Positions 1-19,936 of a stretch of 24,153 nt of DNA are shown one piece after another (the stretch's first letter is position 1; every line of letters begins with the position of its first letter). The notes under the pieces are model-generated. The model did no database searches and was not told the origin of the DNA. It worked only from the letters and a program-made list of their open reading frames with translations. Origin of the DNA: a virus. The DNA lies in the IMG/VR virus record IMGVR_UViG_3300037189_004863, positions 1 through 24,153 of that record. One strand, 5' to 3'. The position numbers and the translations under genes are program-made.

Positions 1-3000
1 CTCAAGCAAGGAGATAAAAGCATTAAGTTTGCAGACGTATTTCAATTTGTTACTGGTGACAATAAAGACGGGACAAGTCCGTTTTATTTCAAGAATGGAA
101 AGATTGTTGTCAATACCACTAAGCTAGCCAAGAACTTTAGTTTCATTAGCAATAAGGCAATTGAAAATGATGAACAAAAAACCAGCATTGCTTTGATGGT
201 AGCATCTACTGTTCGCGCTGCTCTTGAGGAAGAGATTCTGCACTTGGCCACAGTTAATGCATTTAAGCCTAGTGAGCTTGTTGGGTTTTATGATGAGCTT
301 CAATCTCTTGGTTACTTCAATGACATGATTGACCAAATTCGCGCAATGCAAGGAATTGACAATGCGAATGATTCTTTAACTGAAGCTGAAAAGATTGTCA
401 TTGCTGCTGAGATAATGTCATTCACGCATCAACGTGCAATCAATGGAGCTACGTATGGAGATGAGTATCAACGTCTTGTAGATGGATTGTATGCTAGGGC
501 CGACCAAGGTGGACGCGCTCTTGAGACAGCTCGCCAATACGGGCAGACATTGAACAACATTCTTATGGCTCGCGCTGCTACGTCTTTCATGTCTCCCAAA
601 ATGCAGCAAATGCTTGAAAAACTGAATAAGGCCAAGGTTAAGCTTGGTGTAAATCAAAGACTCAATAATACCGACAAGCTTGTTGCTGGCTATCTTAGTG
701 AGCAATACAAGATGAATAGAGCTAATCTTCAAAAGTCTATTGATAGCGCGTTCATGCAGGAGTCTGTTGCTGTTGAAGAGTTCCGTTCAGAACTTAAAGC
801 AATCAACATCCCTATTCGTCAGGTTATTGATATTGATTTCCAAAACGGAACAATTGAAATTGATCCAGACTTTGCTAAGTATTATCAGGCTAAGTATGGC
901 ACTGATAAATATGATGGGATTGTTGCTTACTTTAGCCGACTAAATGAAAGTCAAGTAGCTAAAGACCTTGCTCGCTCTGTTCGTTCATCTCGCCAAGTAA
1001 TGGATGCAATGCGTGTCTCTCTTGATTTAAATGATGGATTAGACAATCTTGCTGCTCAACTAACTGATGGTAATTTTGATTCAGTAATCGAATACTTGAA
1101 GAACTATTCTCCAGCAGATGGCATTTCATTTGATTCTTTAATTCAAATTGCTCGTTCTTTTGAATTTGATACAAATGTAACTCTTGCAAATAATTTAGAC
1201 AAAGGAGCTATTGCTTCAAGTATTTTGGATTTGTATCAAATACAAAGTCCGTTTTACAAAAATGATCCAAGGGTTGATGTTTATGGTAATTTAAAAGCAA
1301 GGCCAGATGCAGTAAAGTTTTTAACAACAATGTTTTCTGGATTAATTGAAAGAAGCAACTCAATGGATGATAGGTCTTTTGTTGATTATGGAATTTCTCA
1401 AGTTGTTCCTAGTAATATTGTGAGTCAAGGGGCAGATGCAATTATTGATTTCTTGTTTGATTATTTTTTAGCATCTGGCAAAAATAGTAATTACAATAGA
1501 GTTCAACAAAACATACAAACAAAATCAAAACTAGATGAAGCATTATCTTTGCTTATAAATAAAAACGCAGCTCCCAATCTCGCTACTGTTGTTCCAGCTT
1601 ATGCTCCATTTGCTCAAGCTGTAAATAACTACAATGATCTTGTTCTTAGTTATGATGAAATTATCTTGAACAAAAACCTTAATCGGGTTGATGACTTTGG
1701 ACGCGAATTTATTCCTCTTACTAAATACATTCCCAAACTCAGCAGAGGAATCAACTTTCAGCCTAACTTGTTTGGTTATGCAAATCAATATCCGTCTGAG
1801 GCAATTAACGATAGAAGCGCAGTTGCTGATAGAAGAAAACGTAAAGAAAGCGAAGATACAATCAAGCAATCCATTGAGTGGCAGAATTTGTTTTTGGGGC
1901 GTTATACGAGCAATGATCGTCAGGCCAACCCAGACAAGGTAATGGCTCACGAAAACAATGCTAACCATGCTGGCGAACAAGAATACAATCTCTCTGTAAT
2001 TGGGCGCATGATTGCTGCTCCACTATTGTATTCCACCTTTGATACTGATGGTAATCGCATTGATAGACAAATGTCTTATAATGAATACTATAAGACAATG
2101 GGCTTCCAGCCTATTGTAAATAGAGTTCGTGTTTTTGATGGCTACGCTGATCCAGCACCTCTTAATGAAAATCTTTTGAAATACTCTATTACTGACAAAG
2201 AAATTAAATTGTCTAGTGATATTAGCGTTAATATTCGTGGATTAAATGGGAAAGCTGCAAACATGGTTTTCAGTGATAAACCATCTGCGTATGATGCAGC
2301 AATCAAACAACTTACTGGATTTTTGTTTGAAGGTAATGATGCTGGAATCAAGATTGATGATTGGTTTAATGTTATCTCTGGACTGATTGGATACAATGAG
2401 AAAACAGGAGAGCCAATGGTTGTTGAATCCATCAACGGAGAAGAAACATTTGCTTCTAAGTTCGCAAAGCAAATGATGTTTAGATTGTTTGGCAAAAACC
2501 CAGAAGATAAGACTGACAGAAATCTAAAAGAATACATTCAACTTCTTGATAGAGCCTACAAAGCTACAAGACCTGGACAATTTGGCGATGTTAAGAAACT
2601 TTCCGATAAGGAGAAAAGAGACATTATTAACGAACTTCCTTTCTTCTTGGAGCTTATTGATGCTGCTAATAGAGATATTGGATTGGCGCGTAAAGCCTAT
2701 TCTCGTTTCAAGAGCAAGTTCCTTAATGGAACAATCAATGCCGATATTCGCCTTATCCAAGAGCAAGGAGCTGCTGGTATTCGCGCTAATGACAATCTCA
2801 GAAAAGCTATTGCCGAAAGCTATTATGACATTCAGGCAATGTTTGATATTGAATGGCACTCCAATTACTTAGCAAAAGGTGGGCCTATTGGTTATCAAGG
2901 ATTGACCGCATTGCAATTGATGTCTGAGTTTGCGCGTATTCCTAGTTCTGCATCTAAAGAATACTTCCTAAAGAGTGGTCAAATGATGCCTGAAGCTGGA

Positions 3001-6000
3001 AGATCACAAGATGCCTACAAAGCAAGTCTTCAAGTAATGCAATATGACAGACTTCCAAGTGAAATGGATGAAGAGTTTCTTGATGAAAGGGTGCAAAAAG
3101 AAGGAGAGTTTACAGAAACCCAAGACTTGCTTCCATCTGGATATGAAGGAACTGCTGAACAGCTTAAAACCAATAGAAGGATTGAAGGCATTCAAGAAGA
3201 TAAAAGAATGAAATCATGGGTAACCCATGCTGCGCTATCCATCTTCCAAAGTATTCCTAATGCTAAAAAGGATGTTTACAAGAGAACCATTTCTCCAGAT
3301 AGAGCTAAACGGTTTTTCTATTTGTTTACACAGGCACAGGACAATTTTTCATCTATTGAGGAAAAGAAAAAAGCTCAAGCAGATTTACGTGGTTTAGTTG
3401 GCGAAACAATGAGTCAGCTTGGTAAGCGTTATGGAGCAACGGAAGAGTTCGCCCAAATCACCGATAAGCTTTCTACATACAATCATCCATACTCATTGCT
3501 TATGGATGTTGTTGAGATTATTGCAGGAAAAGAAAAGCAATTTGTTGATGAGCAAAGATTGTCAGCTGAAAGCATTGCAAACAATGTTATTGAAGGTCTT
3601 CGCAACAATGTCATTATTGAGAGAGGCGCTGCAAATCAAATTGACTCCCCTGTGATTGGCTCTGGTTACTACATGTATGGTGATGATGCAAGGAAGCCGC
3701 AGCCTCCAGTCTTTGGTAAAAACGCAACTAATTCAGAAAAGAAAAAGGCTTACGATGATTATGCAAGAAATCTTGAAAGATGGAATCTTGAGAAGCGTCC
3801 TGAAAGAGCATCGGCTAAATCTACATTTAATCGAAATGCTGTTTCTTCTCAGGAAATACTTGATTCTATTGAGGAGGATATTGAAAAAGGACAATTGCTT
3901 GCTGGAACATTGTTCAATGCTCGCACGTTCCAACTCGGTGACTCGGAATCAATGATGGACAGTTCTTTGTTCATGAATACTCCACTGTTTTCTATGCTGC
4001 TTCAGGCGTTTCCAAACTTGGTCGTCTATCAGCCAGCGACATACAATGGCAAAACCAAGAACGTATCAAGAAGCATTGATATTGCCTATCTTGAAAATGG
4101 AGATGCAGTTCTTTACATTGATAATGCTGTTGGTCTTGGATCGAGTCAGCAACAAGAAATTCTTGAAAAACTCATCATTGCTAGAATTGGTCAAGAACGC
4201 GCAATTGGCAAGAATGGATTAGAAAGTGCAATTAACTTTGCTGCTGAAAATATTCGCAAACAAGTTCGCTATGCATTTAATGTCACCCCTGCTCGTATTG
4301 ACGCAATGGTTGAGAAAGCGGATAGTGCTTTGCGCTCTATTAAAGGAATGCCTCCTGAAGTAATTCAGCCAATGCTTGATAAGTATCGCCAATCTATTGA
4401 GAAAGAAGCAACCGAGAAGCTTGCATTGCTTGCTGGCAATATTGCTCCTAGTAGATTTGCCGAGAATGCTTATGGGCTTAACAGTATTGATGCAAACAGT
4501 TTCTTTGAGACATTGCTTGGAAAACCAAAAGTCGATAACGTCCCCGTTGATCGCGGCATTTATGAAAACCTGCGCATTGTCACTGAGATGTTCACCAATC
4601 CTGAGGCTTATGATGTTCTTAGTAAGATTAAAGCTCCTGAATCAGACCTGATTACTGATACTCTCAATCCAAGATATGAGGCGTTTATCGAGAAAGCTCT
4701 CAGAAGATTCCAAGCTAAAGAAGTTCAAAGCTCAATGGCTTTTGAAATTCAACTTGATAAAGGCGGCAAGCAAATGTCGCAACTTGATGAAGATGGATTC
4801 CCAGAAACCGAGAGAGACTTAACCGATTATGCTGATCCAGCTTTTGCTGTTGAATTCCTTTACGATGCTTTTGAACGTAATTTCCTTGATGCTGAACCTA
4901 GTGAGAAATCTTACGCAAAAATTAAGAAAAACATCAACAAAATCCAAAAGACCAATCCTGATACAATTAGAAACCTTGTTGATAGATTCTTGGCTGAAAG
5001 CGCTGTTGCTAATACAAGCGGCAAATTAAAACATAATCAGATTAGTCCGACTAAAGAAATCATTGAGGAGTTGGACTACAAGCCAGACTTTATGTATCGC
5101 TACGTTGCGTCTGAGCTAATCAACGCTTTGTCTCCAGCTTCTGACTACGCCTCTACAATTGAAGACATAAAAGAATTACCATCCGAGAAAAGCGCTTACG
5201 AGATTATTCAGGGCGGCGCATTCCCTCTTCTTGTTGATAATACTGGTAATGCCAATGTTTCTTCCTATGGCAATCTTACCAACTTCTACTATGGCCATTC
5301 TCCATTGACTGACATATTTGAACGCAGACGCAAAGGAGAGTTTGTTGATTTGCTTGCTTCTAAAACACCAGAAGCTAATAACCTTCTTGATGACTACACT
5401 AGGTCTTCCGTTAAGTCTGAAGCTAACAATAGAGTTGAAGTTGATGTTCTTGAAAATCCCGATTTGATTTTTGAGATGAGAAATTCACTTGAGAACATAA
5501 TTGGGGTTGATAACGTAAATCTTGCTGCCGCAAATGTTTCTCGTATTAAACAAAGAAATGACGAACTAAATAAGAGTGCGCGTGAAAGAATCGCAAGTAT
5601 TGATGCTGAGATTGTGTCTTTGCAACAAGAGGGAAGAAACTCAACTGAAACCGCATTGATTAAAAACGCTGAGAAGAAATTATCTGATGCGTCTGAAGTC
5701 ATGGATCGCGTTGCATCCGCTATTGCTGATTTGGTTGCTGACAAGCAGATGAAGATGAATAGTTATTCCAATAAAATAGCTAGGTCGCTTTCCGAAAATT
5801 CTGGCAAAGCTATTGCTGCTTACAAAGAAAAAGTTACTCAAATTTCAGACACTTATGACGACTACTGCAAAACTCTAATTGAGGAACGTCAATCAAAAGA
5901 AATAACGGTTGAGCAATTCAATAGGTCTTTTGGCGACGCTATTAACGAAAGAAATCGTTTAGCGCGTGAAATCAATGCTACGATTACTGGTATATCTTTG

Positions 6001-9000
6001 CAGATTGCGCAGCAAATTACATCAAATATTGAGAATGGAGCATTTGGTATTCTTCCTCCTAATGCTGAATTAGCGCAGGAAATTGAAAATAGGTATCTTG
6101 GCGATTTGTATATTCCACTTATTCTCGATTACCAAGTAGATGAGTCTACGCCAATGGGAATAATGTTTAGCAAGTTCTTAACCGACAAGAGCTTTAAGAC
6201 TAGAGCGGCAAATAAAGTGTTCTCTGCTGATTACATTAGCAAAATGCTTGATACTTATCTTGCCGACAAAGACCTGCGTGATCGTGTCAGCGCTGTAACC
6301 GAAAGCAAAAAACAACTGTTTAGCCAGCTAAAGAAAAATGGCAAACTCAGCAAGATCGTAGATGGCGCAATCAAAGCTAATAGAGACGTATTTGACAGAG
6401 AGCAAATTAAGAAAAATGTAGCATCTACAATTCTGACTGATGATAAAGTTCTTGAGGCTTTCAGCAATGAGTTCGCTATGGGCTTTGGCGACTTTATTGA
6501 TATGCTTGATAACAAAGATGCCGAATCTGGATTAATTGCTGAGTCTGAGGAGGCTATTGGTATTGATAATACTGGAAGAGCCATTAGCATGTTGATTGCT
6601 GAACGCGAACAATTGCAGAAAACGATTAAAGAAAGGCAGGGCGACCCATCAACAACCAAACGTATTCTTATGCAGTTGCGTAAGAGCTTGAAGTTTGATG
6701 AGAACACAACAAGACAAAGAATCTTTAATCACGGCAATCCTGTTTTTGATATGCTTATTGATCTTGAGTATGATCCAAGCAAGTCAGACGATGATGAACT
6801 AAAAGAAAGAATAGAGTTGCAGACTGAAATTATTCAGGAGGCAGCTAGGTTGTTTATTGAGCGTGAAGGAGAGGCTTTGTATAAGGCTTTGCGTGAGGAT
6901 ATTGATGTTTTTGGTTTGGGTTTTGATGTTGAGCAGAACATTGATAATGTTTTGGCTATTGTTGATATTCGCAACAGAATGGCAGAGAAAGCTCAAGACA
7001 TTTACGAAGCCAATGCTGACCCAGTATTTGATGATGAAATTGCCCAAGCCAATGAGAAAGCCAAGCAGATGTTTGGCGTTACGGTTAAGGACATGGTTAC
7101 TTACAACCTTGAGCCAGTAGTCATTTACACTGAAGATCGTATAGTTGATGGTGAACTAGTTAAAGCTGATAGCGAGAATGCTGTCTACAAAAAGCTAGAA
7201 AAGAAAGCTCTTTACACTAGCCAGAAGGAACGTCTTCAAAACTATGCTCTGTTTATTGAGGATGAATATCAAACAAGCGTATTCATGCCAACAACAACAA
7301 GACTACAAGACCTACCAAGCAAAACATATCTTCTTTACAACCAAGGCGCTCAAAACGAACTCAAGCAAATTAAGCAGAAGTCAGGAGCAAAATGGACAGT
7401 TGATAGCAAATTCAAAGATATTGTTTTCCGTGCTGCTCAAAACCCAGGAAAAGGTGGACAAGGTGGACTCAAGACTCAAACTCACAAAGAGATTGATGTT
7501 GATCCTAGCTCTGCAATATCTAATGCTTTAGCCAACGCAACTAAAGTTGATCCTAAAACTACGGTTAAAGACTTCATTAAGATGGCCAAGAAGAACTTCA
7601 GTGGTTTCTTCATCAAGAACTCAATTGGTCAATCCATCAGCGACTTTGCTCAAGGTATTGGCATTGTTGGGACAATTAAGCCAATCAACAAGCTAAAGGA
7701 TGACGAAATCAAAGATGCGTTTTCTGAGATTTACTCATTTGCCAGCGATGCGAATAATCAACAACTCTTGCAGAATTCTGGCATGGAGCTTTTGACTAAA
7801 GCAAAAGGCCAGTATTCCAAGGATGAACAAAAAGCTATTGTTGAAAAAGCTTACGGAATCGCAATCAAGGAGAATCCATTCTTGAATCCAGCATCAAAAG
7901 CTAGCCATGCATTGCTTCTTTATGAGGCGCAGCTTTCAGATATTATCAATATGCTAAACAGCAAGGATATGGAGAGCAAGGGTCAGAACTTTACTGTGTA
8001 TGTCGAGCAAGCAGTTGATTCTATTGGCAAACTATTCAACATTGAGGAAAACATTAAGTCTGCTCGCCCGATTGAGCCATACAACCTGTCTCGCGGGATT
8101 GCGGATTTAGACTTGGGTCACAACTACGCTAGACTCTTCTCTATTCTCTATGCGTCCGAAACAATGCATCAACTTGTTGTTGGCGCTATTAGTCCAGAAA
8201 AAGCAGATGATTTGCTGTCCATGATGACAGTCCATGAGAATGCATTGCTTCGCCGCAAGTTTTCTGGTGGTATTGGATCATACAATGAGGCGCTTAACCT
8301 AGTTGGATTGATTGACCATGGCATTAACGGGGCTTCTGGCAGAAACCGCTATAACGCCGAGTATCAAGCGTTCCAGAACAAGATGGGCAATGCATCCAAA
8401 GACCTTAATAACGACTTTTTAAATGGAGCTAAAGCAATGCTTATTGCCTCACTCAAAGGAATTAAGATGGCAAATCAAAAGGATGGCGGAACTGAAACTG
8501 ATTATGCATTTAAAGTTCACCAATGGGCTTACATGTTCCGTGCTGGATACAAAGACTACAAGAAAATTGATGAGAACAAAGACAAGTTTAAGCAAACAGC
8601 TAATAAACTCTCAAGAACAATTTCTAGAATCAAGCCAATTGGAAGAAAGCAAGCAAGAGAAGGCGCTGCTACTGACGAGATTTACTCCTTGCTTGAGAGA
8701 GATGTAAATTTTCTGGCTAACATTATCGGCATTAAGTCTTACAGTGAAGCTGAAATGGATACGTTTGTTCAAAACATGATTAGCAAACTTGAGGTTGGAT
8801 TAAGCCAAGAAGAATCTGCGGCTGTAAGCAAATACTCAAATGCGCTTCTCGAAGAGTTTAGCGACATTTATGAGGCTCACAGAATAGCCAATATGTTTGC
8901 GACAAGAGACAATAGGGTTAAGATTAGCGAAAACAAGATTCAATCACCAGAGAAAATGAGCGACGCCCTTGGTCGTCCGTATTCGATTCTTCCGCTCAAA

Positions 9001-10974
9001 GCTGGATATGTTCGCAACCCATTGAATGATTCTGATAACGAGTTTGATGAAGGCTCCTTGTCTATCAATGAGTTCATTGGATTTGAGCGCTCAAGCATGA
9101 ATTACAAAGGAAGACGCTCACTCTCCGTTAAAGAGAATGTTGGTGATCCACTTCGCCCACTCGACCTCAATCCATTCACAGCTGTTGACGGATTGGCTTC
9201 TGACGCAATGTATAGAACATTCCTTGCTCCTACCTTTGGAGTTATTAAGAAGTTGATGGGTAATGTTGAGTTCAATGACAAGCGCCAGATGGTAACGAGT
9301 GAAGGGTTCCTTCATGGCATTGCATCTGAGGAGATTGGCGGAATTAAAAATAGCGAATACTTCCCGCATGTTGCTTCTTATATCATGCACACAATTGAGA
9401 AGAACATTCGCAATGACATGCCCAAGCTTCTTGAGGACAGCTTTCTTAGCGACATGATTAAAGTTGGCAATATCTCAACTCTTGTCAGGGCATTGTTTAG
9501 CGTTTGGCAGATACCAATTAACGGAGTCCTTCCTGCTGTGTCTAAGTATCTAAACATCAGGATGATGAATGCTTTTAGTCACCTAAATTGGTTTGGCGTA
9601 ACTCATAAACCAGTCGAAGCATTGTCTTCTGCTTATAAACACGCCATAATAAACTATGGGAAAGACCAAAGCGATATTGCTAAGTTTGTTAAAGAAAACA
9701 GCATTAACAGTTATAAGTGGAAAGCGGAAGGATCGAACACAAGAGAAACTCAAATCAGCCTAGCTAAATACCATAAAGAAAACAGAGTCAAATATGGCAG
9801 TAGATGGCTTGCTGCTCGCGTCAGAGACGTTGGCGAAAAGTCTCTTGAATACACTATCGGCGCTCCAGAAAGAGCAAATGTTCAGGCAATTTTCTCATTT
9901 GAGCTATTTAATGAACTGCAAAGAACAATGGGCGACAAAGCTCCTCAAACTATTGAGGAAATGTTCAAGATGAATCCAGATGATATTAGCACATTGGCCA
10001 AGACCAAGGCTGATATTATGGTGGCTGACTTCATGGGTATGAGCGACAAGGCCAAGAAAGCTGGGGTTTATAACCTTGATGTTAAGCGTCCATTGGCAAG
10101 TCTTCTTGTTTCTGGTTTAACGCGATTTGGTAACCACAAGCTTACGACCAATGCTAACCTGATGGTTTATGGAAAACATTTGTTCATGAGAGCTTTGGAT
10201 AAAGAACAATACGATAAAGACATAACTCAAAATGCCGTGGAAAACGTAGCTGGAACATTGCTTCAAAACGTTCTTTACCATTTTGCCAAAGCGCAAGTTA
10301 TGATTCCAGTGTTCACATGGGGTGCGGCTGCATTAACTACATTCTTTGCAGAGTTCTTTGATGAAGATGAGCCTGATGAATCCAAACTCCAAGTAATCAA
10401 TGAGAGATATTATGATTGGCTCGAAGCAATGACTCAGGTTCTTCCCGAGCAGTTGTTTGTTTTCAACTGGATCAAAGAGCAAATCTTCCCATACATGAGC
10501 GCCTACAAGAACATTGACGAGGGCATTGGCAGCGGGCTTACCGAAACTCTTGCTAAGGCTACGGAGAATGCAATGTGGGAAACTACGGGATTTGTCCCAA
10601 TGTTTGGAGCAGGCCTTGGTATGCCAGCAATTGAGTCAGCTGCTAAGGTTGTGACAAGCTATGGAGCTAGTGCAATCATGGGAGTTGATGAAGAGCAAAC
10701 ATATAAAGACAGAATGGCTGAAAATCGTGATAAGCTGCGTCAAGCAGAAAGAGCTTTCGGAACATTCTATTCCCCGATTAGTGAGCCGATTGAGGCAACT
10801 AAAGACATGAGTGCTGTAATTTTGAATTACATGACCCCCAAAGATGGCTTTGATGGCATATCAACTCAAGAGTTTGTGTATGGCTTACTCAGCCAGTCAA
10901 TGGGGACAAGAGAAGGCAAAACAAACCAAGCTAGAAGGCACAAAGAAGAAGGAGGTTGGGGGAGCGGATATTAA
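1..10974 (+). CDS. Giant phage 'polyvalent'-type protein, 5' end outside window (at least 3657 aa)
   Basis: The frame is open from base 1 to a TAA at 10972-10974, so the start lies upstream of the window; internal ATG or TTG codons near 193 are not convincing starts. Residue numbers here count from base 1. Residues 37-81 read like a zincin-type domain: a GKIVVN strand, then E-E-I-L-H at 77-81 where HExxH would be expected. Residues 165-190 (ALETARQYGQT) resemble a stretch I recall from large polyvalent proteins. About 1843-1990 is charged and probably coiled coil. The C-terminal 250 residues hold hydrophobic stretches at about 3432-3453 and 3530-3560, followed by acidic DEDEPDE, a layout I associate with the C-terminal polyvalent domain. 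Family knowledge: such proteins are often packaged in the virion and ejected with the DNA. That role is inferred here. It is the only long plus-strand gene and converges with the minus-strand block. Confidence 0.85.
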   Translation, partial: LKQGDKSIKFADVFQFVTGDNKDGTSPFYFKNGKIVVNTTKLAKNFSFISNKAIENDEQKTSIALMVASTVRAALEEEILHLATVNAFKPSELVGFYDELQSLGYFNDMIDQIRAMQGIDNANDSLTEAEKIVIAAEIMSFTHQRAINGATYGDEYQRLVDGLYARADQGGRALETARQYGQTLNNILMARAATSFMSPKMQQMLEKLNKAKVKLGVNQRLNNTDKLVAGYLSEQYKMNRANLQKSIDSAFMQESVAVEEFRSELKAINIPIRQVIDIDFQNGTIEIDPDFAKYYQAKYGTDKYDGIVAYFSRLNESQVAKDLARSVRSSRQVMDAMRVSLDLNDGLDNLAAQLTDGNFDSVIEYLKNYSPADGISFDSLIQIARSFEFDTNVTLANNLDKGAIASSILDLYQIQSPFYKNDPRVDVYGNLKARPDAVKFLTTMFSGLIERSNSMDDRSFVDYGISQVVPSNIVSQGADAIIDFLFDYFLASGKNSNYNRVQQNIQTKSKLDEALSLLINKNAAPNLATVVPAYAPFAQAVNNYNDLVLSYDEIILNKNLNRVDDFGREFIPLTKYIPKLSRGINFQPNLFGYANQYPSEAINDRSAVADRRKRKESEDTIKQSIEWQNLFLGRYTSNDRQANPDKVMAHENNANHAGEQEYNLSVIGRMIAAPLLYSTFDTDGNRIDRQMSYNEYYKTMGFQPIVNRVRVFDGYADPAPLNENLLKYSITDKEIKLSSDISVNIRGLNGKAANMVFSDKPSAYDAAIKQLTGFLFEGNDAGIKIDDWFNVISGLIGYNEKTGEPMVVESINGEETFASKFAKQMMFRLFGKNPEDKTDRNLKEYIQLLDRAYKATRPGQFGDVKKLSDKEKRDIINELPFFLELIDAANRDIGLARKAYSRFKSKFLNGTINADIRLIQEQGAAGIRANDNLRKAIAESYYDIQAMFDIEWHSNYLAKGGPIGYQGLTALQLMSEFARIPSSASKEYFLKSGQMMPEAGRSQDAYKASLQVMQYDRLPSEMDEEFLDERVQKEGEFTETQDLLPSGYEGTAEQLKTNRRIEGIQEDKRMKSWVTHAALSIFQSIPNAKKDVYKRTISPDRAKRFFYLFTQAQDNFSSIEEKKKAQADLRGLVGETMSQLGKRYGATEEFAQITDKLSTYNHPYSLLMDVVEIIAGKEKQFVDEQRLSAESIANNVIEGLRNNVIIERGAANQIDSPVIGSGYYMYGDDARKPQPPVFGKNATNSEKKKAYDDYARNLERWNLEKRPERASAKSTFNRNAVSSQEILDSIEEDIEKGQLLAGTLFNARTFQLGDSESMMDSSLFMNTPLFSMLLQAFPNLVVYQPATYNGKTKNVSRSIDIAYLENGDAVLYIDNAVGLGSSQQQEILEKLIIARIGQERAIGKNGLESAINFAAENIRKQVRYAFNVTPARIDAMVEKADSALRSIKGMPPEVIQPMLDKYRQSIEKEATEKLALLAGNIAPSRFAENAYGLNSIDANSFFETLLGKPKVDNVPVDRGIYENLRIVTEMFTNPEAYDVLSKIKAPESDLITDTLNPRYEAFIEKALRRFQAKEVQSSMAFEIQLDKGGKQMSQLDEDGFPETERDLTDYADPAFAVEFLYDAFERNFLDAEPSEKSYAKIKKNINKIQKTNPDTIRNLVDRFLAESAVANTSGKLKHNQISPTKEIIEELDYKPDFMYRYVASELINALSPASDYASTIEDIKELPSEKSAYEIIQGGAFPLLVDNTGNANVSSYGNLTNFYYGHSPLTDIFERRRKGEFVDLLASKTPEANNLLDDYTRSSVKSEANNRVEVDVLENPDLIFEMRNSLENIIGVDNVNLAAANVSRIKQRNDELNKSARERIASIDAEIVSLQQEGRNSTETALIKNAEKKLSDASEVMDRVASAIADLVADKQMKMNSYSNKIARSLSENSGKAIAAYKEKVTQISDTYDDYCKTLIEERQSKEITVEQFNRSFGDAINERNRLAREINATITGISLQIAQQITSNIENGAFGILPPNAELAQEIENRYLGDLYIPLILDYQVDESTPMGIMFSKFLTDKSFKTRAANKVFSADYISKMLDTYLADKDLRDRVSAVTESKKQLFSQLKKNGKLSKIVDGAIKANRDVFDREQIKKNVASTILTDDKVLEAFSNEFAMGFGDFIDMLDNKDAESGLIAESEEAIGIDNTGRAISMLIAEREQLQKTIKERQGDPSTTKRILMQLRKSLKFDENTTRQRIFNHGNPVFDMLIDLEYDPSKSDDDELKERIELQTEIIQEAARLFIEREGEALYKALREDIDVFGLGFDVEQNIDNVLAIVDIRNRMAEKAQDIYEANADPVFDDEIAQANEKAKQMFGVTVKDMVTYNLEPVVIYTEDRIVDGELVKADSENAVYKKLEKKALYTSQKERLQNYALFIEDEYQTSVFMPTTTRLQDLPSKTYLLYNQGAQNELKQIKQKSGAKWTVDSKFKDIVFRAAQNPGKGGQGGLKTQTHKEIDVDPSSAISNALANATKVDPKTTVKDFIKMAKKNFSGFFIKNSIGQSISDFAQGIGIVGTIKPINKLKDDEIKDAFSEIYSFASDANNQQLLQNSGMELLTKAKGQYSKDEQKAIVEKAYGIAIKENPFLNPASKASHALLLYEAQLSDIINMLNSKDMESKGQNFTVYVEQAVDSIGKLFNIEENIKSARPIEPYNLSRGIADLDLGHNYARLFSILYASETMHQLVVGAISPEKADDLLSMMTVHENALLRRKFSGGIGSYNEALNLVGLIDHGINGASGRNRYNAEYQAFQNKMGNASKDLNNDFLNGAKAMLIASLKGIKMANQKDGGTETDYAFKVHQWAYMFRAGYKDYKKIDENKDKFKQTANKLSRTISRIKPIGRKQAREGAATDEIYSLLERDVNFLANIIGIKSYSEAEMDTFVQNMISKLEVGLSQEESAAVSKYSNALLEEFSDIYEAHRIANMFATRDNRVKISENKIQSPEKMSDALGRPYSILPLKAGYVRNPLNDSDNEFDEGSLSINEFIGFERSSMNYKGRRSLSVKENVGDPLRPLDLNPFTAVDGLASDAMYRTFLAPTFGVIKKLMGNVEFNDKRQMVTSEGFLHGIASEEIGGIKNSEYFPHVASYIMHTIEKNIRNDMPKLLEDSFLSDMIKVGNISTLVRALFSVWQIPINGVLPAVSKYLNIRMMNAFSHLNWFGVTHKPVEALSSAYKHAIINYGKDQSDIAKFVKENSINSYKWKAEGSNTRETQISLAKYHKENRVKYGSRWLAARVRDVGEKSLEYTIGAPERANVQAIFSFELFNELQRTMGDKAPQTIEEMFKMNPDDISTLAKTKADIMVADFMGMSDKAKKAGVYNLDVKRPLASLLVSGLTRFGNHKLTTNANLMVYGKHLFMRALDKEQYDKDITQNAVENVAGTLLQNVLYHFAKAQVMIPVFTWGAAALTTFFAEFFDEDEPDESKLQVINERYYDWLEAMTQVLPEQLFVFNWIKEQIFPYMSAYKNIDEGIGSGLTETLAKATENAMWETTGFVPMFGAGLGMPAIESAAKVVTSYGASAIMGVDEEQTYKDRMAENRDKLRQAERAFGTFYSPISEPIEATKDMSAVILNYMTPKDGFDGISTQEFVYGLLSQSMGTREGKTNQARRHKEEGGWGSGY

Positions 10975-11260: not shown

Positions 11261-11375
11261 TCCCCACCGATACTTGCCTCGGTAGGCACGGCAACACCTA
11301 AGTATGTCAGACTGGCTGAACCCTACCACGGGCCGTGTTCGTCTTTAGCCATTGACTATGTAGTTGACCGACTAC
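11261..11375. other. Hairpin-rich non-coding region, possible structured RNA
   Basis: The 158 bases between the 90-aa gene and the acyl carrier protein gene contain no convincing gene but dense inverted repeats. ATACTT (11270-11275) pairs with AAGTAT (11300-11305). Inside it GCCT (11276-11279) can pair with AGGC (11284-11287), competing with TTGCC (11274-11278) pairing GGCAA (11290-11294) and with ACCGA (11266-11270) pairing TCGGT (11279-11283). TGGCTGAA (11313-11320) pairs with TTTAGCCA (11344-11351), 8 bp with one G-T pair. GTAGT (11360-11364) pairs with ACTAC (11371-11375) across a 6-base loop. It is GC-richer than its flanks. It could be a minus-strand leader of the 90-aa gene, a 3' end of the acyl carrier transcript, or an RNA from the plus strand. 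No tRNA cloverleaf fits. Confidence 0.4.
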
Positions 11376-11401
11376 CCACGGTTATCTTGCGTCCAAGAAA
11401 A

Positions 11402-11638
11402 TTATTCTGATAGTATTTTATTAACTAAAGTTACAACGTCTCCTATTGTTTTGCAGGATTCGAATTGTTCTTCGTTCACTCTAATATCAAAGTCATCTTC
11501 TACATACATTGCCATTTCTACAATGTCTAAGGAATCAAATCCAATGTCGTCAAATGTTGACTCAGGAGTTATGTCTTTCTCATTGAATTGAAAATAGTCT
11601 CCCAAGATTACCAGTATTTTTTCGTATGTATCACTCAT
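11402..11638 (-). CDS. Acyl carrier protein (78 aa)
   Basis: This is a complete small acyl carrier protein. The diagnostic motif GFDSLD is at residues 33-38. Ser36 in D-S-L is the expected 4'-phosphopantetheine attachment site, the same place as in bacterial AcpP. Around it are the usual acidic helix (DIVEMAMYVEDDFDI) and the conserved N-terminal helix and loop (ITPESTFDDIG). Family knowledge: ACPs carry acyl chains as thioesters for fatty acid and related syntheses after modification by a holo-ACP synthase. No synthase or acyltransferase is visible in this window, so it presumably relies on host enzymes. The start at MSDTYEK is chosen because it gives the canonical ACP length and follows AACAAT. 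Upstream in-frame codons extend the frame to about 11701 but are not ACP-like. An ACP is unusual cargo for a phage. Confidence 0.9.
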   Translation of the reverse strand: MSDTYEKILVILGDYFQFNEKDITPESTFDDIGFDSLDIVEMAMYVEDDFDIRVNEEQFESCKTIGDVVTLVNKILSE

Positions 11639-11650
11639 ATTGTTAAATTT

Positions 11651-11692
11651 TTGCGGTGTTGAATGGGGCCGCAACTCCCTGAACATCGCCCC
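11651..11692 (-). promoter_or_regulatory. Competing inverted repeats in the leader of the acyl carrier protein gene
   Basis: In the 104 bases upstream of the ACP start, TTGCGG (11651-11656) and CCGCAA (11669-11674) form a perfect 6-bp inverted repeat with a 12-base loop, ending 13 bases before the ATG. GGGGC (11665-11669) can instead pair with GCCCC (11688-11692). The two helices share base 11669, so they exclude each other. That is the geometry of a switchable leader, but it may be chance in a short GC-rich stretch. The rest of this spacer holds no gene I can support. Confidence 0.25.
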
Positions 11693-11742
11693 CTTTCTCA
11701 ACTAACGGGACACAGGAGGAACTGAGCAACCCCCTTGGCTTT

Positions 11743-12030
11743 TTACATGTTCAAAAACGTTCCTTTAGGATTCACAAGCCAGCCATCAGCTTTTGCCTGA
11801 AATGTATTATGGTGAATCCATTCGTGACAATCATGACACAAAGGAAGAACAACGCAACAAAATTCTCTTGTTGTCCGACGATACGGATGGTGAGGCTCAA
11901 AGTCTCCATTGAATATCGTCCAATTGCTCCCTCTTTTACAGCATCGAGCGCAAGCTGTAGGCACATAGGAATACAGAATCTTCTTGTATTGCTCAAGCCA
12001 TTCAGCTCGCTTCTCTGACACTCGTCTCAT
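11743..12030 (-). CDS. Small HNH nuclease-like protein (95 aa)
   Basis: This is a compact HNH/zinc-finger protein. C27-x2-C30 is followed by EPHH (45-48) and by C65-x2-C68-H69 with H73, the usual order of zinc-knuckle cysteines and HNH histidines in short phage HNH proteins. Family knowledge: such proteins are DNA nickases or endonucleases, some acting as free-standing homing endonucleases and others in packaging. Which applies here cannot be told. The start codon overlaps the TGA that closes the amber-interrupted gene upstream (ATGA, 12027-12030), so it was probably translationally coupled to the full-length version of that gene. No Shine-Dalgarno sequence is present. The N-terminal region (EKRAEWLEQYKK) is a basic helix, possibly for DNA contact. 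Confidence 0.75.
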   Translation of the reverse strand: MRRVSEKRAEWLEQYKKILYSYVPTACARCCKRGSNWTIFNGDFEPHHPYRRTTREFCCVVLPLCHDCHEWIHHNTFQAKADGWLVNPKGTFLNM

Positions 12031-12628: not shown

Positions 12629-13279
12629 TTAGTGTTTTGATTTTGGAAGTTCGTCTTTATCGAGTGTCTTTTTGAATCCCACATTTGCAGCAGTATGGAA
12701 GACAACAATGCCTTCGGGGTTCATAAATCCTGGGGCTGCTTGGCTTCCAGTGGCTCCCAAGTAAGTAAGAACAGCTTCAATACGTGCAGTATCAAAGATT
12801 CCTTGGTAAAGAATAGGAACAAGTCCTACGCACGGAGGGAGAACATCTTGGTATTTTACAGTATTAGGGTTTTGGCTAGGAATGATTTGAGGCTCTTGCC
12901 CATGCAAACACCAGCGAGTTACGTTAAACAGGCTCAGGCGCTTCTCTGAGAGGCCATACTTCCTTTGGATGCCTTGACCCCACCATTCGCCAAAATGCGT
13001 TCCTACGCCAAGTGTGCGCAATTCCATAGCATTATCATAAACCCATGAAGCAAAGCCAAAGTTGTCATCAACAAGCGTAATCCATCTTGTTCTGCTGCCC
13101 GCAAGCATTTTGTAGTCTAGCCCATCTTCTCCAAGCCATCCCACGATAGCATACGGGTCTTCTCTGTGATTGCCATGAGTAATATGAATGCTGGCGTTGG
13201 TTCCATCAATTTTTTCGAGGACTAAGCATTCCCTGTTTAATCTTGGTATTTTATTAAATTGCTTGAATTGTGGTGTCAT
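12629..13279 (-). CDS. RNA-ligase-type nucleotidyltransferase (216 aa)
   Basis: The protein carries the motifs of the covalent nucleotidyltransferase superfamily (T4 Rnl2-like RNA ligases and DNA ligases) in order. Motif I is EKIDGTN, with K23 as the AMP-accepting lysine. A downstream arginine element is SRTR (62-65). The motif III-like segment is FGEWWG (96-101), motif IV is PEGIVVF (188-194), and the motif V lysines are GFKK (201-204). At 216 residues it is a minimal catalytic core. Family knowledge: such phage enzymes seal nicks in RNA, often repairing host-cleaved tRNA. The substrate here is not known, and a DNA ligase role cannot be excluded. The start at 13279 follows AACATATAAT. It begins one base after the TAA of the HNH gene. 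A diverged copy of its first 24 codons lies on the other side of that HNH gene. Confidence 0.82.
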   Translation of the reverse strand: MTPQFKQFNKIPRLNRECLVLEKIDGTNASIHITHGNHREDPYAIVGWLGEDGLDYKMLAGSRTRWITLVDDNFGFASWVYDNAMELRTLGVGTHFGEWWGQGIQRKYGLSEKRLSLFNVTRWCLHGQEPQIIPSQNPNTVKYQDVLPPCVGLVPILYQGIFDTARIEAVLTYLGATGSQAAPGFMNPEGIVVFHTAANVGFKKTLDKDELPKSKH

Positions 13280-13280
13280 A

Positions 13281-13748
13281 TTATATGTTTTTTAAATGTG
13301 ATTTTCCGCTTCCAGTTCGCCTATCTCTCGTCCTTATACGATGACAGTTGGCACAAACTAAGTCGCATTTTTTCAGTTCTATTTGAATGAGTTCCATGCT
13401 GTAGTGGTGGGCAAACATGCTTCCTATATTATAAGATTTTGTTGTTTCTTCGCGGTGATCAAAATCCATACAACATATTTCAAATGTATTTCCACAATCG
13501 CAACATGGCTTGGATTTTATTTCGTTCATCCAATTTCTGAGAGCTGTTACCTTTGCCCCTGTTTCACGCCATCTACCTTCTTCTTTATATCGTTTTGCTC
13601 TATACTTCCGAACCGTTGCATTAAGTCGTTCTCTATTGTTTTGAGTCCAGTTTTTATATCTGCATTCTTTTGAACAATATTTTTGACTTTTTTTGCTTTT
13701 TGTCGGAATAAATTCTTTTTTGCATTTTTCGCATGTATTATAATCCAT
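13281..13748 (-). CDS. HNH endonuclease with N-terminal zinc finger (155 aa), homing-type candidate
   Basis: This is a two-part protein. An N-terminal zinc finger (C6-x2-C9 and C25-x3-C29) is followed by a basic linker rich in Arg and Lys (residues 38-65). The HNH nuclease then has C82/C85, D97-H98 and C132-x2-C135-H136. The ATG at 13748 is chosen over an upstream TTG because the zinc finger begins immediately after it. Family knowledge: this architecture is typical of mobile, free-standing HNH homing endonucleases in phages. Its position supports mobility: it sits exactly between a 5' fragment of a ligase gene (ending at the catalytic lysine) and a complete ligase gene that starts one base after its TAA. 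Its own start lacks the AACA leader used by its neighbours, which fits an insertion. Confidence 0.82.
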   Translation of the reverse strand: MDYNTCEKCKKEFIPTKSKKSQKYCSKECRYKNWTQNNRERLNATVRKYRAKRYKEEGRWRETGAKVTALRNWMNEIKSKPCCDCGNTFEICCMDFDHREETTKSYNIGSMFAHHYSMELIQIELKKCDLVCANCHRIRTRDRRTGSGKSHLKNI

Positions 13749-13771
13749 AAAGCTATTATGGACTAAACGGC

Positions 13772-13858
13772 TCAAGAATCAAGAGTTTTTTCAGTGATGA
13801 TGCATTCTCTTGATAATCTTCCCATCTTGGGGAACTCTTTGAATTTTGGTGTTTCCAT
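13772..13858 (-). pseudogene. Truncated 5' fragment of a second ligase gene
   Basis: A 28-codon frame begins at ATG 13858 after a normal leader (AAAACAAAT) and reads METPKFKEFPKMGRLSREC, then IITEK. It aligns with the start of the intact ligase downstream (MTPQFKQFNKIPRLNREC, then LVLEK), with 13 of 22 aligned residues identical by eye. Similarity stops right after the lysine that is the motif I nucleophile. The fragment then runs TLDS and a TGA at 13772-13774. Twenty-three bases later the HNH gene starts. It is best read as the remains of a ligase gene cut in motif I. It differs too much from the intact copy to be a fresh duplication. It could still be translated as a short peptide. Confidence 0.8.
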
Positions 13859-13878
13859 ATTTGTTTTGGTTAATTGGA

Positions 13879-13960
13879 TTGCATTAAGTGTCATGTTTTG
13901 AAGTCATTTCTGACAGGCACTAGCGTATTATCCTGAGTCGCCACCACAGCCTTAATGCAA
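13879..13960. repeat. 10-bp perfect inverted repeat flanking a 62-base non-coding segment
   Basis: TTGCATTAAG (13879-13888) and CTTAATGCAA (13951-13960) are perfect inverted repeats. The 62 bases between them contain further short pairing possibilities, such as TGACA opposite TGTCA. The segment lies between the stop of the primase-helicase gene and the orphan ligase fragment, and no gene fits here. It could fold as one long stem on the minus transcript and act as a processing site, leader or boundary. There is no T-run after it, so it is not a simple intrinsic terminator. Confidence 0.45.
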
Positions 13961-19014: not shown

Positions 19015-19539
19015 ATGAAGCCATCTGGTGTATCCATAAATCCCCCCGTCTCCATACAATGGAAGGGAGAGACTGTGAAAGTTAGTAGTGCTGCGCAATC
19101 TATTAAGTTGCTTAACATTCCATTTGAGGAAATTGATTTATTTCTTACTGAGGTTTACAAGGCCAATCCTATGCTTGTTAGTGACGCCGACTCTATTGCG
19201 ACAAGAAGAGTTCATTTTTCAGACATACAACAATACCTCAAGGCACTAAAGTCGCGCTGGATGGATTCAAAGATTCCAATCGTTGATGAAGAAACTGCAG
19301 AAAAAAGATTTAAGATTTGCGACACTTGTCCCCAAAAAATTAGAATTGCTGGTTGTTTTGGATGCTCGTCTGTAAGTAAATTGTTAATGCATATTCCCTA
19401 CAACTTCACTTATAACGAAGTAGGTTGTGGAGTTTGTAGTTGCTATCTCAACAATAAAGTTTGGATGGGTAAGGAGGTTCTCAATGAGGACTCAAGAAAC
19501 TTAGAATATCCTGAGCATTGTTGGATTAACAAGATTTAG
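19015..19539 (+). CDS. Cysteine-rich zinc-binding protein (174 aa), only plus-strand gene in the minus block
   Basis: Residues 1-95 are helical (QSIKLLNIPFEEIDLFLTEV and HFSDIQQYLKALKSRWMDSK) and not recognised. The last 75 hold a cysteine cluster: C-D-T-C, then CFGC, then GCGVCSCYLNNKVW, ending in EHCW. I recall a similar pattern (a 'R-x-x-I-C-x-x-C ... C-G-C ... CP-x-x-x-W' zinc ribbon) from small phage proteins, though here the spacing is longer. The ATG at 19015 is preferred over an upstream TTG. It is divergent from DUF932, whose ATG is only 27 bases away, and its end overlaps the HNH gene by 14 bases. Any promoter must lie in or over the DUF932 start. Its isolated orientation suggests separate timing or recent arrival. 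Confidence 0.7.
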   Translation: MKPSGVSINPPVSIQWKGETVKVSSAAQSIKLLNIPFEEIDLFLTEVYKANPMLVSDADSIATRRVHFSDIQQYLKALKSRWMDSKIPIVDEETAEKRFKICDTCPQKIRIAGCFGCSSVSKLLMHIPYNFTYNEVGCGVCSCYLNNKVWMGKEVLNEDSRNLEYPEHCWINKI

Positions 19540-19936
19540 ATTTTTGTTCTTTGGTTACTCCAGCATGACATTCAATGCACAAAACCCTAAAGCCATCTAT
19601 TTCACAGAATAGTCTTTGAGCAAACCCAGGAAGATCGTCAAAAGAACTCAGTGATCCAGCGGGAATAATGTGGTCAATGTTTACTTCCTTACGTGGAAAC
19701 TCACCACAGCATAATGCACATTGATAATGCATGGCTAGTCTACCAGTCTTTTTGTTGATTAGCTTTGCTGTTTCTGCCTTCTTGAGGCAAGCATAGGCTG
19801 GCTGCCAGCGAGATGATGCTCTTCTCAATGCTGTCCTAATGAATTGAAAGAACCTAGCATTAGTCCATTGACCACTACAAAATGGACGAGCAATGTCTGC
19901 GCGTTTGCCTCTCTTAAATTTTGTTTTTGTCTTCAT
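19526..19936 (-). CDS. HNH endonuclease (136 aa)
   Basis: The C-terminal half has the standard HNH zinc-finger nuclease layout. C73-x2-C76 (YQCALCC) is followed by IDHIIPAG, with D88-H89 as the catalytic pair, then CEIDGFRVLC-x2-C-H (C120, C123, H124). The N-terminal 60 residues are strongly basic (KFKRGKRADIARPF, RTALRRASSRW) and probably bind DNA. This architecture, with the 'LFCEIDGFRVLC' segment, is common in phage genomes as a structural HNH with no sign of mobility. Unlike the HNH at 13281-13748, no broken gene lies beside it. It overlaps the zinc-ribbon gene upstream by 23 bases and the convergent plus-strand gene by 14. No Shine-Dalgarno sequence precedes the ATG. Confidence 0.83.
   Translation of the reverse strand: MKTKTKFKRGKRADIARPFCSGQWTNARFFQFIRTALRRASSRWQPAYACLKKAETAKLINKKTGRLAMHYQCALCCGEFPRKEVNIDHIIPAGSLSSFDDLPGFAQRLFCEIDGFRVLCIECHAGVTKEQKSKSC

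Follow-up and report, generated by a model that had tools for sequence, protein, structure and literature searches.

Introduction

Each integration of a WHO element, a mobile element of Torulaspora and Lachancea yeasts, swaps the 3' end of the FBA1 gene; the old end is left behind as a fragment, no splicing is involved, and the substitute gives resistance (Coughlan et al. 2020, PMC7282813). Gene hybrids associated with mobile ORFs occur in fungal mitochondria, namely atp6 in Allomyces and atp6, atp9, cox2 and nad3 in Glomus, and in these the native end stands at 91–98% against relatives and the inserted end at 64–81% (Beaudet et al. 2013, PMC3630166). Free-standing homing endonucleases of phages include the products of the seg and mob genes of T4, and MobE, which splits nrdA in phage Aeh1 (reviewed in PMC2988022). 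Those known so far split genes or sit between genes (PMC2988022; PMC10448857). T4/T6 SegB and HNH genes have also been described in phage tRNA arrays (PMC13096335; PMC5966550), and the latter source cites Pope et al. 2014 for HNH genes together with tRNA diversity.

Here, the sequence around an RNA ligase gene with a second, truncated start is described for an uncultured phage, and compared with related loci and with these systems.

Results

Organisation of the RNA ligase locus

The stretch of DNA that was analysed, referred to as the window, is a 24-kb metagenomic fragment (24,153 nucleotides; IMG/VR virus record IMGVR_UViG_3300037189_004863). Its minus strand carries, in the 5' to 3' direction, a leader, 24 ligase codons, the codons for TLDS with a stop, an HNH endonuclease gene, a single base and a complete RNA ligase gene. 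The truncated frame of 28 codons (13772–13858, minus strand) translates as METPKFKEFPKMGRLSRECIITEK-TLDS. Its ligase-like part, the 24 codons at 13787–13858, is cut directly after the motif I lysine codon, and the frame continues through TLDS to a stop at 13772. The HNH gene (13281–13748, minus strand, with the ATG at 13748 as the best start) encodes a protein of 155 aa (MDYNTCEKC...MDFDHRE...LVCANCHRIRT). The intact ligase gene (12629–13279, minus strand) matched PF09414 (E 9.3e-8) and phrog_548 (E 2.3e-24), and these profile matches, together with the KxDG of motif I and the positions of the further motifs, identify its product as a phage RNA ligase of the PF09414 type. The ligase body (12629–13210, minus strand) includes motif I from IDGTN onward, GSRTRW, FGEWWG, PEGIVV and FKK. 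Translation and coordinates confirmed what the initial annotation, made without database searches, had recorded here: a ligase start of 28 codons that halts at the motif I lysine, with an HNH gene between it and an intact ligase.

The annotation had named similarity no better than chance as a possible objection, and the check was run. When the record was searched with the intact ligase protein, the fragment came up unprompted (13778–13852, E 1.1e-4). Fragment and intact start are identical in 13 of 22 residues, and their ungapped BLOSUM62 score of 77 compares with a best score of 40 among 100,000 shuffles and of 26 for the runner-up stretch in a six-frame scan of the window.

Comparison with an empty site

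A relative that lacks the HNH gene and whose ligase start is closer to the fragment than the local start, as the annotation had proposed to look for, was found in L003. This viral contig of 60,967 bases has the same gene neighbourhood as the window and a ligase of 87% protein identity, and of the relatives that lack the HNH gene it is the closest. L003 contains a single ligase, and no HNH gene of the window kind was found anywhere in the 61-kb contig. Its ligase starts with MNTPTFKEFPKMGRLSRECIVTEK, which agrees with the window fragment at 55/66 nt (83%) and with the start of the intact window gene at 43/66 nt (65%), while past the motif I lysine the two ligases agree at 491/579 nt (85%). The difference in divergence from L003 between the new start and the body gave p 2e-4 in Fisher's test, and none of 172 windows of 66 nt along the body was as low as the new start, the minimum being 50/66. 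The leader of the fragment is collinear with the leader in L003, and the blastn match stops at 13786, one base past the Lys codon.

Because the L003 start matches the fragment better than it matches the local intact start, the fragment was taken as the leftover native 5' end, and it is referred to below as the scar. Judged by this comparison, the scar and the ligase body are native and the intact gene's initial 23 codons (13211–13279, minus strand; MTPQFKQFNKIPRLNRECLVLEK) are foreign, such that one native ligase was opened at motif I and 576 bp (13211–13786, minus strand), with the HNH gene and another 5' end, were placed in it. This insert, which extends from motif I to motif I, consists of a short left end with a promoter-like sequence (13746–13782, minus strand), the HNH gene and the substitute ligase 5' end. 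The initial annotation had offered two origins for the fragment. The first, arrival of the HNH gene with a 5' piece of another phage's ligase, was right in that a foreign start came along, but the foreign piece is the 23 codons of the intact gene and not the fragment, given the values of 83% for the fragment, 65% for the intact start and 85% for the body. The second, an older ligase that was cut while another survived, did not stand, since a single gene appears to have been interrupted at motif I and given a new start.

Nothing close to the new start of the window, and no donor ligase, was found in phage genomes. A scan with the pattern LVLEKIDGT returned two contigs only, with starts that were unrelated or matched poorly.

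Some further features of the two sequences were recorded. The leader above the ligase scar (window 13873–13960, minus strand; L003 2878–2973) is conserved between both and bounded by an inverted repeat (TTGCATTAAG...CTTAATGCAA); the folding z-scores were −1.5 and −2.6, Rfam gave no match for the leader of the window or of L003, and it is possibly a structured leader or a regulatory RNA. A stretch of 102 bp, 78% identical, differs in location between them: it is found at the 3' end of an acyl-carrier-like gene in the window (11306–11407) and above the ligase leader in L003 (2763–2864); its folding in the window was not notable (z −0.6). An ORF at 11402–11701 (minus strand) resembles acyl carrier protein (FDDIGFDSLDIVE), by eye only, and positions 1–10974 (plus strand) form a single open frame of 3657 codons that is open at the left end of the record.

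Occurrence in other phages

The nearest relative of the window HNH protein (66% over the match, 62% overall) is encoded in L092, an unrelated phage contig, again with a truncated ligase start on one side and a complete ligase on the other. Two further contigs with the same layout, L265 and L266, were found through GSMFAHHY, a peptide peculiar to the HNH proteins of the window and L092; as a short exact pattern, it may well have missed other members. The survey of recurrence, including the search for members that break the rule, covered the collections scanned here, and the phages of all four ligase cases are uncultured. A protein scan of HNH loci for scars, in which low-complexity matches in GC-rich loci were disregarded, gave only the window and L092 as distinct by position.

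The scars read MEFAGFPKMARYSREAIASE-N in L092, MTEFKPFPKMARLSRECMITEK in L265 and MEFLEFPKIARLSRECVITEK in L266, and each is followed by the HNH gene and by a ligase with a different start. The position of the left junction is common to these three and the window: each of the four scars breaks off at the Glu-Lys codons of motif I, within 1–2 bases, that of L092 ending inside the Lys codon.

For the L266 ligase three relatives of 90–93% protein identity were available, L279, L272 and L273, with no HNH gene at the site. The L266 scar agrees with them at 56/63 (21/21 aa), 54/63 and 51/63 nt, respectively, the new start at 41/63, 40/63 and 39/63, and the body at 414/471, 410/471 and 405/471, which corresponds to 81–89% for the scar, 62–65% for the new start and 86–88% for the body. 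The blastn match over the scar ends in all three relatives at base 1377, the last of the Lys codon. No close empty-site relative of L092 or L265 was found among the loci fetched.

Two explanations that need no gene-end replacement can be judged at this point. Phages often carry free-standing HNH genes and remnants of genes do occur, and the window might hold an ordinary HNH gene beside a ligase, with a fragment that is chance similarity or recombination debris. The shuffle and window-wide six-frame controls exclude chance, however, and with the same codon boundary in four phages and clean empty sites for two of them, chance similarity and random debris were ruled out; the probability left to an ordinary HNH insertion of this kind is negligible. 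The presence of two ligase starts side by side would also follow if two tandem ligases had existed, one of them destroyed by the HNH insertion and the second surviving. Close relatives have a single ligase, however, and the same codon would have to be hit in four phages; furthermore, the scar and the body are taken to come from one gene because both are equally close to the relative, in the window (83% and 85%) as well as in L266 (81–89% and 86–88%). Tandem ligases are considered most improbable, and replacement of the 5' end of a single gene is preferred.

Sequence of the new ligase start

Across the four phages, the scar and the new start have 60–64% nucleotide identity (36–40% of the bases differ), and the residues kept are 13/24, 13/21, 16/22 and 18/21. 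The differences are mostly at third positions, of which 6–12 of 21–24 are identical, and the new start is in frame with the ligase body. The fragment is too diverged to be a fresh copy, as had been annotated. The pattern looks like that of a coding sequence under selection, which suggests that the new start is used.

The residue before Glu-Lys was compared in 165 ligases and was Thr in 158 and Ser in 6; the window was the only one with Leu. Ser is also the residue in the new starts of L092 and L265, as well as in the scar of L092. This change of residue may reflect resistance to the enzyme, although we offer this as a guess.

The same residue, Leu in the new start of the window and Ser in those of L092 and L265 where 158 of the 165 have Thr, fits a further explanation, in which the element made a second copy of the resident 5' end that then changed rapidly and so evaded the enzyme, with no foreign DNA involved; the similarity of the proteins of the new starts is also in its favour. 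However, the third-position differences are near saturation, set against an identity of 85% in the body, and the new start of L266 has a GC content of 35%, where its scar has 51% and its body 60%. Duplication is considered unlikely, and a foreign origin of the new start is retained.

Without the insert, the native gene would be precisely reconstituted, and introns preferentially occupy conserved codons and anticodon loops (PMC2988022). Both are compatible with an HNH gene inside a group I (or II) intron, splicing of which would join the scar to IDGTN and make the second start irrelevant. Against this, Rfam gave no intron family over the insert even at E 1, and no intron match at gathering score in the window, L003, L266 or L092; about 40 nt remain outside the HNH gene and the substitute start; and the substitute start is in frame, with its protein kept while the DNA diverges. 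A spliced intron is judged to be very unlikely, and a replacement without splicing is preferred. An intein was rejected on the basis of the stop four codons after the scar in the window, and of insert lengths in L265 and L266 that are not multiples of 3.

The HNH gene and its upstream sequence

The HNH protein of the window matched phrog_3106 (E 3.6e-22) and phrog_2255 (E 5.7e-22) and had no match in Pfam; the residues DFDH and CANCH are conserved in the family alignment, in line with an HNH domain. The four ligase-linked HNH proteins are 57–64% identical to one another. These profile matches, and the scar boundary at the motif I lysine, bore out the annotation of a homing-type HNH gene at a conserved active-site codon. 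Of all 21-nt stretches in the 165 ligase genes, motif I and motif III (HFGEWWG) are the two with the highest conservation, and such conservation is what a homing target would lead one to expect. Presence and absence of the gene at one site, a mark of free-standing HNH homing genes, was found for the window and L003, for L266 and its three empty relatives (L272, L273, L279), and for phages Riptide and Bmoc (see below). No HNH relative was found on plasmids, and among solved structures no sequence relative of the HNH protein or of the ligase was found, four weak matches being unrelated proteins. Two more HNH-like genes are present in the window, at 19526–19936 and at 11743–12030 (both minus strand), the latter occurring also in L003 (4332–4622).

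The left end of the insert in the window reads TTGATT-N16-CATAAT, followed by 6 nt and the ATG of the HNH gene. The layout TTGA(C/T)(T/A)-N16-CATA(A/C)T-N6-ATG, in which the ATG is the HNH start, is found just inside the insert in the window, L265 and L266, with a pairwise identity of 24–28/37 over its 37 nt, and a relaxed form of the pattern has a single match per sequence in these three, each time at the HNH gene. L092 has instead TTGACA-N17-CATAAT and a purine-rich ribosome-binding stretch. Since promoter-like matches in the window alone were no more frequent than chance, support for a promoter rests on recurrence. From these sequences, the left end of the insert looks like the HNH gene's own promoter, and a leaderless HNH message is suggested for the window, L265 and L266. 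In the window the ligase gene starts one base after the HNH gene, and in L092, L265 and L266 its start lies within the HNH 3' end.

Related HNH genes at tRNA genes

In many more distant relatives, the HNH gene runs up to or into the 5' end of an entire tRNA gene, and at least five of these loci have, upstream of the HNH gene, the 5' half of a matching tRNA that breaks off at or close to the anticodon. The scars comprise nt 2–40 of tRNA-Phe in L174, nt 1–37 of tRNA-Gly in L183, nt 1–28 of tRNA-Pro in L120 and nt 22–40 of tRNA-Met in L094, and these four matches exceed all 500 shuffles and the other tRNAs tried. The match in L170 was ambiguous in this search for 5' halves upstream of the HNH gene, and no tRNA scar was detectable there in L121, L130, L173, L085 and L185. 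A control with mismatched upstream and downstream pairs yielded 977 null scores with a maximum of 36. Six loci scored above this value; L170 and L173 match complete neighbouring tRNAs and the match in L130 lies too far upstream, and only L120, L174 and L183 were retained as scars by this control. By nucleotide scoring in the same control the window reached 32 and L092 30 (p about 0.004–0.005). L161 was rejected as a scar case, as two complete tRNA-Gln-like genes flank its HNH gene.

Cultured phages provide one such site in both states. In Streptomyces phage Bmoc the second tRNA-Met is uninterrupted (empty site). Riptide and Anedea keep the first 39 nt of it exactly (39/39), and behind these lie an HNH gene, a different tRNA-Met in complete form and an additional ORF; Wofford, which belongs to another genus, has a block as in Riptide and Anedea. 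Because the right junction in Riptide lies beyond the tRNA and not inside it, this case is a looser replacement than those at the ligase.

Other contexts of HNH genes were seen in the collections. The HNH gene overlaps a tRNA 5' end in L268 (974–1201, Mycobacterium phage Cosmo), L269 (722–1207, Patelgo) and L258 (1216–1642, Phabba). In L088 (2824–4453) an HNH relative lies directly 5' of a large ORF that by eye resembles DUF932-type proteins, and no scar was seen. In L157 a short repeat (GGCGGTTAACCAGATG..GCGG) is present on both sides of the HNH gene (2226–2247 and 2830–2851), in a context that is apparently noncoding and perhaps structured; possibly it is another type of target.

Discussion

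Taken together, the sequence comparisons point very probably to a splicing-free homing element at motif I of a phage RNA ligase, which replaces the 5' end of the gene that is cut. Its HNH enzyme would nick or cut ligase genes, presumably at motif I itself, and during co-infection repair of the break would copy the element from a phage already carrying it. In this process the scar of the donor would pair with the left broken end and its ligase body with the right one, so that scar and body would play the role of the two exons that flank an intron. The element would then stay in place, and the in-frame substitute 5' part would let the gene, now encoding a putatively functional chimeric ligase, work at once. 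With the substitute protein kept and about 36–40% of the bases different, the filled gene would be shielded from the enzyme, and the old 5' end would remain upstream as the scar.

It seems fairly likely that the ligase and tRNA loci belong to a broad phage class of splicing-free elements which are built on one HNH family and cut conserved sites. If so, the sites would be ligase motif I, the tRNA anticodon loop and perhaps others; in each the 5' part would be left as a scar and homology arm, while a recoded 5' part would restore the gene and give resistance. Through such a class, phages would continually be supplied with chimeric genes and additional tRNA copies, and a selfish gene could occupy an essential codon without an intron or intein by bringing the missing piece along. 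It would also explain why HNH genes often adjoin tRNA genes, how chimeric gene starts originate, and why boundaries of recombination coincide with free-standing nuclease genes. A direct test is possible with a cultured pair, Riptide (filled) and Bmoc (empty).

In the open-access literature no phage paper on a substitute 5' end with a scar was found; within that literature, priority for the tRNA-site cases is uncertain. Free-standing phage endonucleases are phage-borne, include HNH enzymes in the mob genes, have functionally critical targets and are thought to spread by break repair in co-infection, like the element proposed here; they differ in that they are intergenic or split a gene, a substitute 5' end with a scar not being reported for them (PMC2988022, PMC10448857). 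SegB and the HNH genes of tRNA arrays share with the present cases the spread of endonuclease genes together with tRNA genes. SegB, however, is a GIY-YIG enzyme that cuts in the tRNA region, and for the array HNH genes tRNA 5' halves truncated at the anticodon are not reported beside the HNH gene in PMC13096335 and PMC5966550, as far as could be found.

The closest parallels are fungal. The mobile ORFs of fungal mitochondria likewise combine an endonuclease ORF with a foreign gene end, the native end being relative-like and the inserted one diverged, but there the foreign end is C-terminal and the gene mitochondrial, whereas here it is N-terminal and in a phage gene. WHO elements have in common with the four phages an endonuclease gene, a substitute end of the target gene and an old end kept as a fragment. 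The differences are the end replaced (3' of FBA1 there, 5' of the RNA ligase here), the enzyme (intein/HO-type with a zinc finger there, HNH by PHROG profiles here) and the target (a nuclear yeast gene there, a phage RNA ligase and tRNA genes here). As far as could be found, the principle of gene-end replacement has so far been known from fungi only, at the opposite end of the gene, and by this comparison the layout at the phage ligase can be regarded as the mirror image of that of the WHO elements, which act at the 3' end, and of the fungal mitochondrial mobile ORFs.
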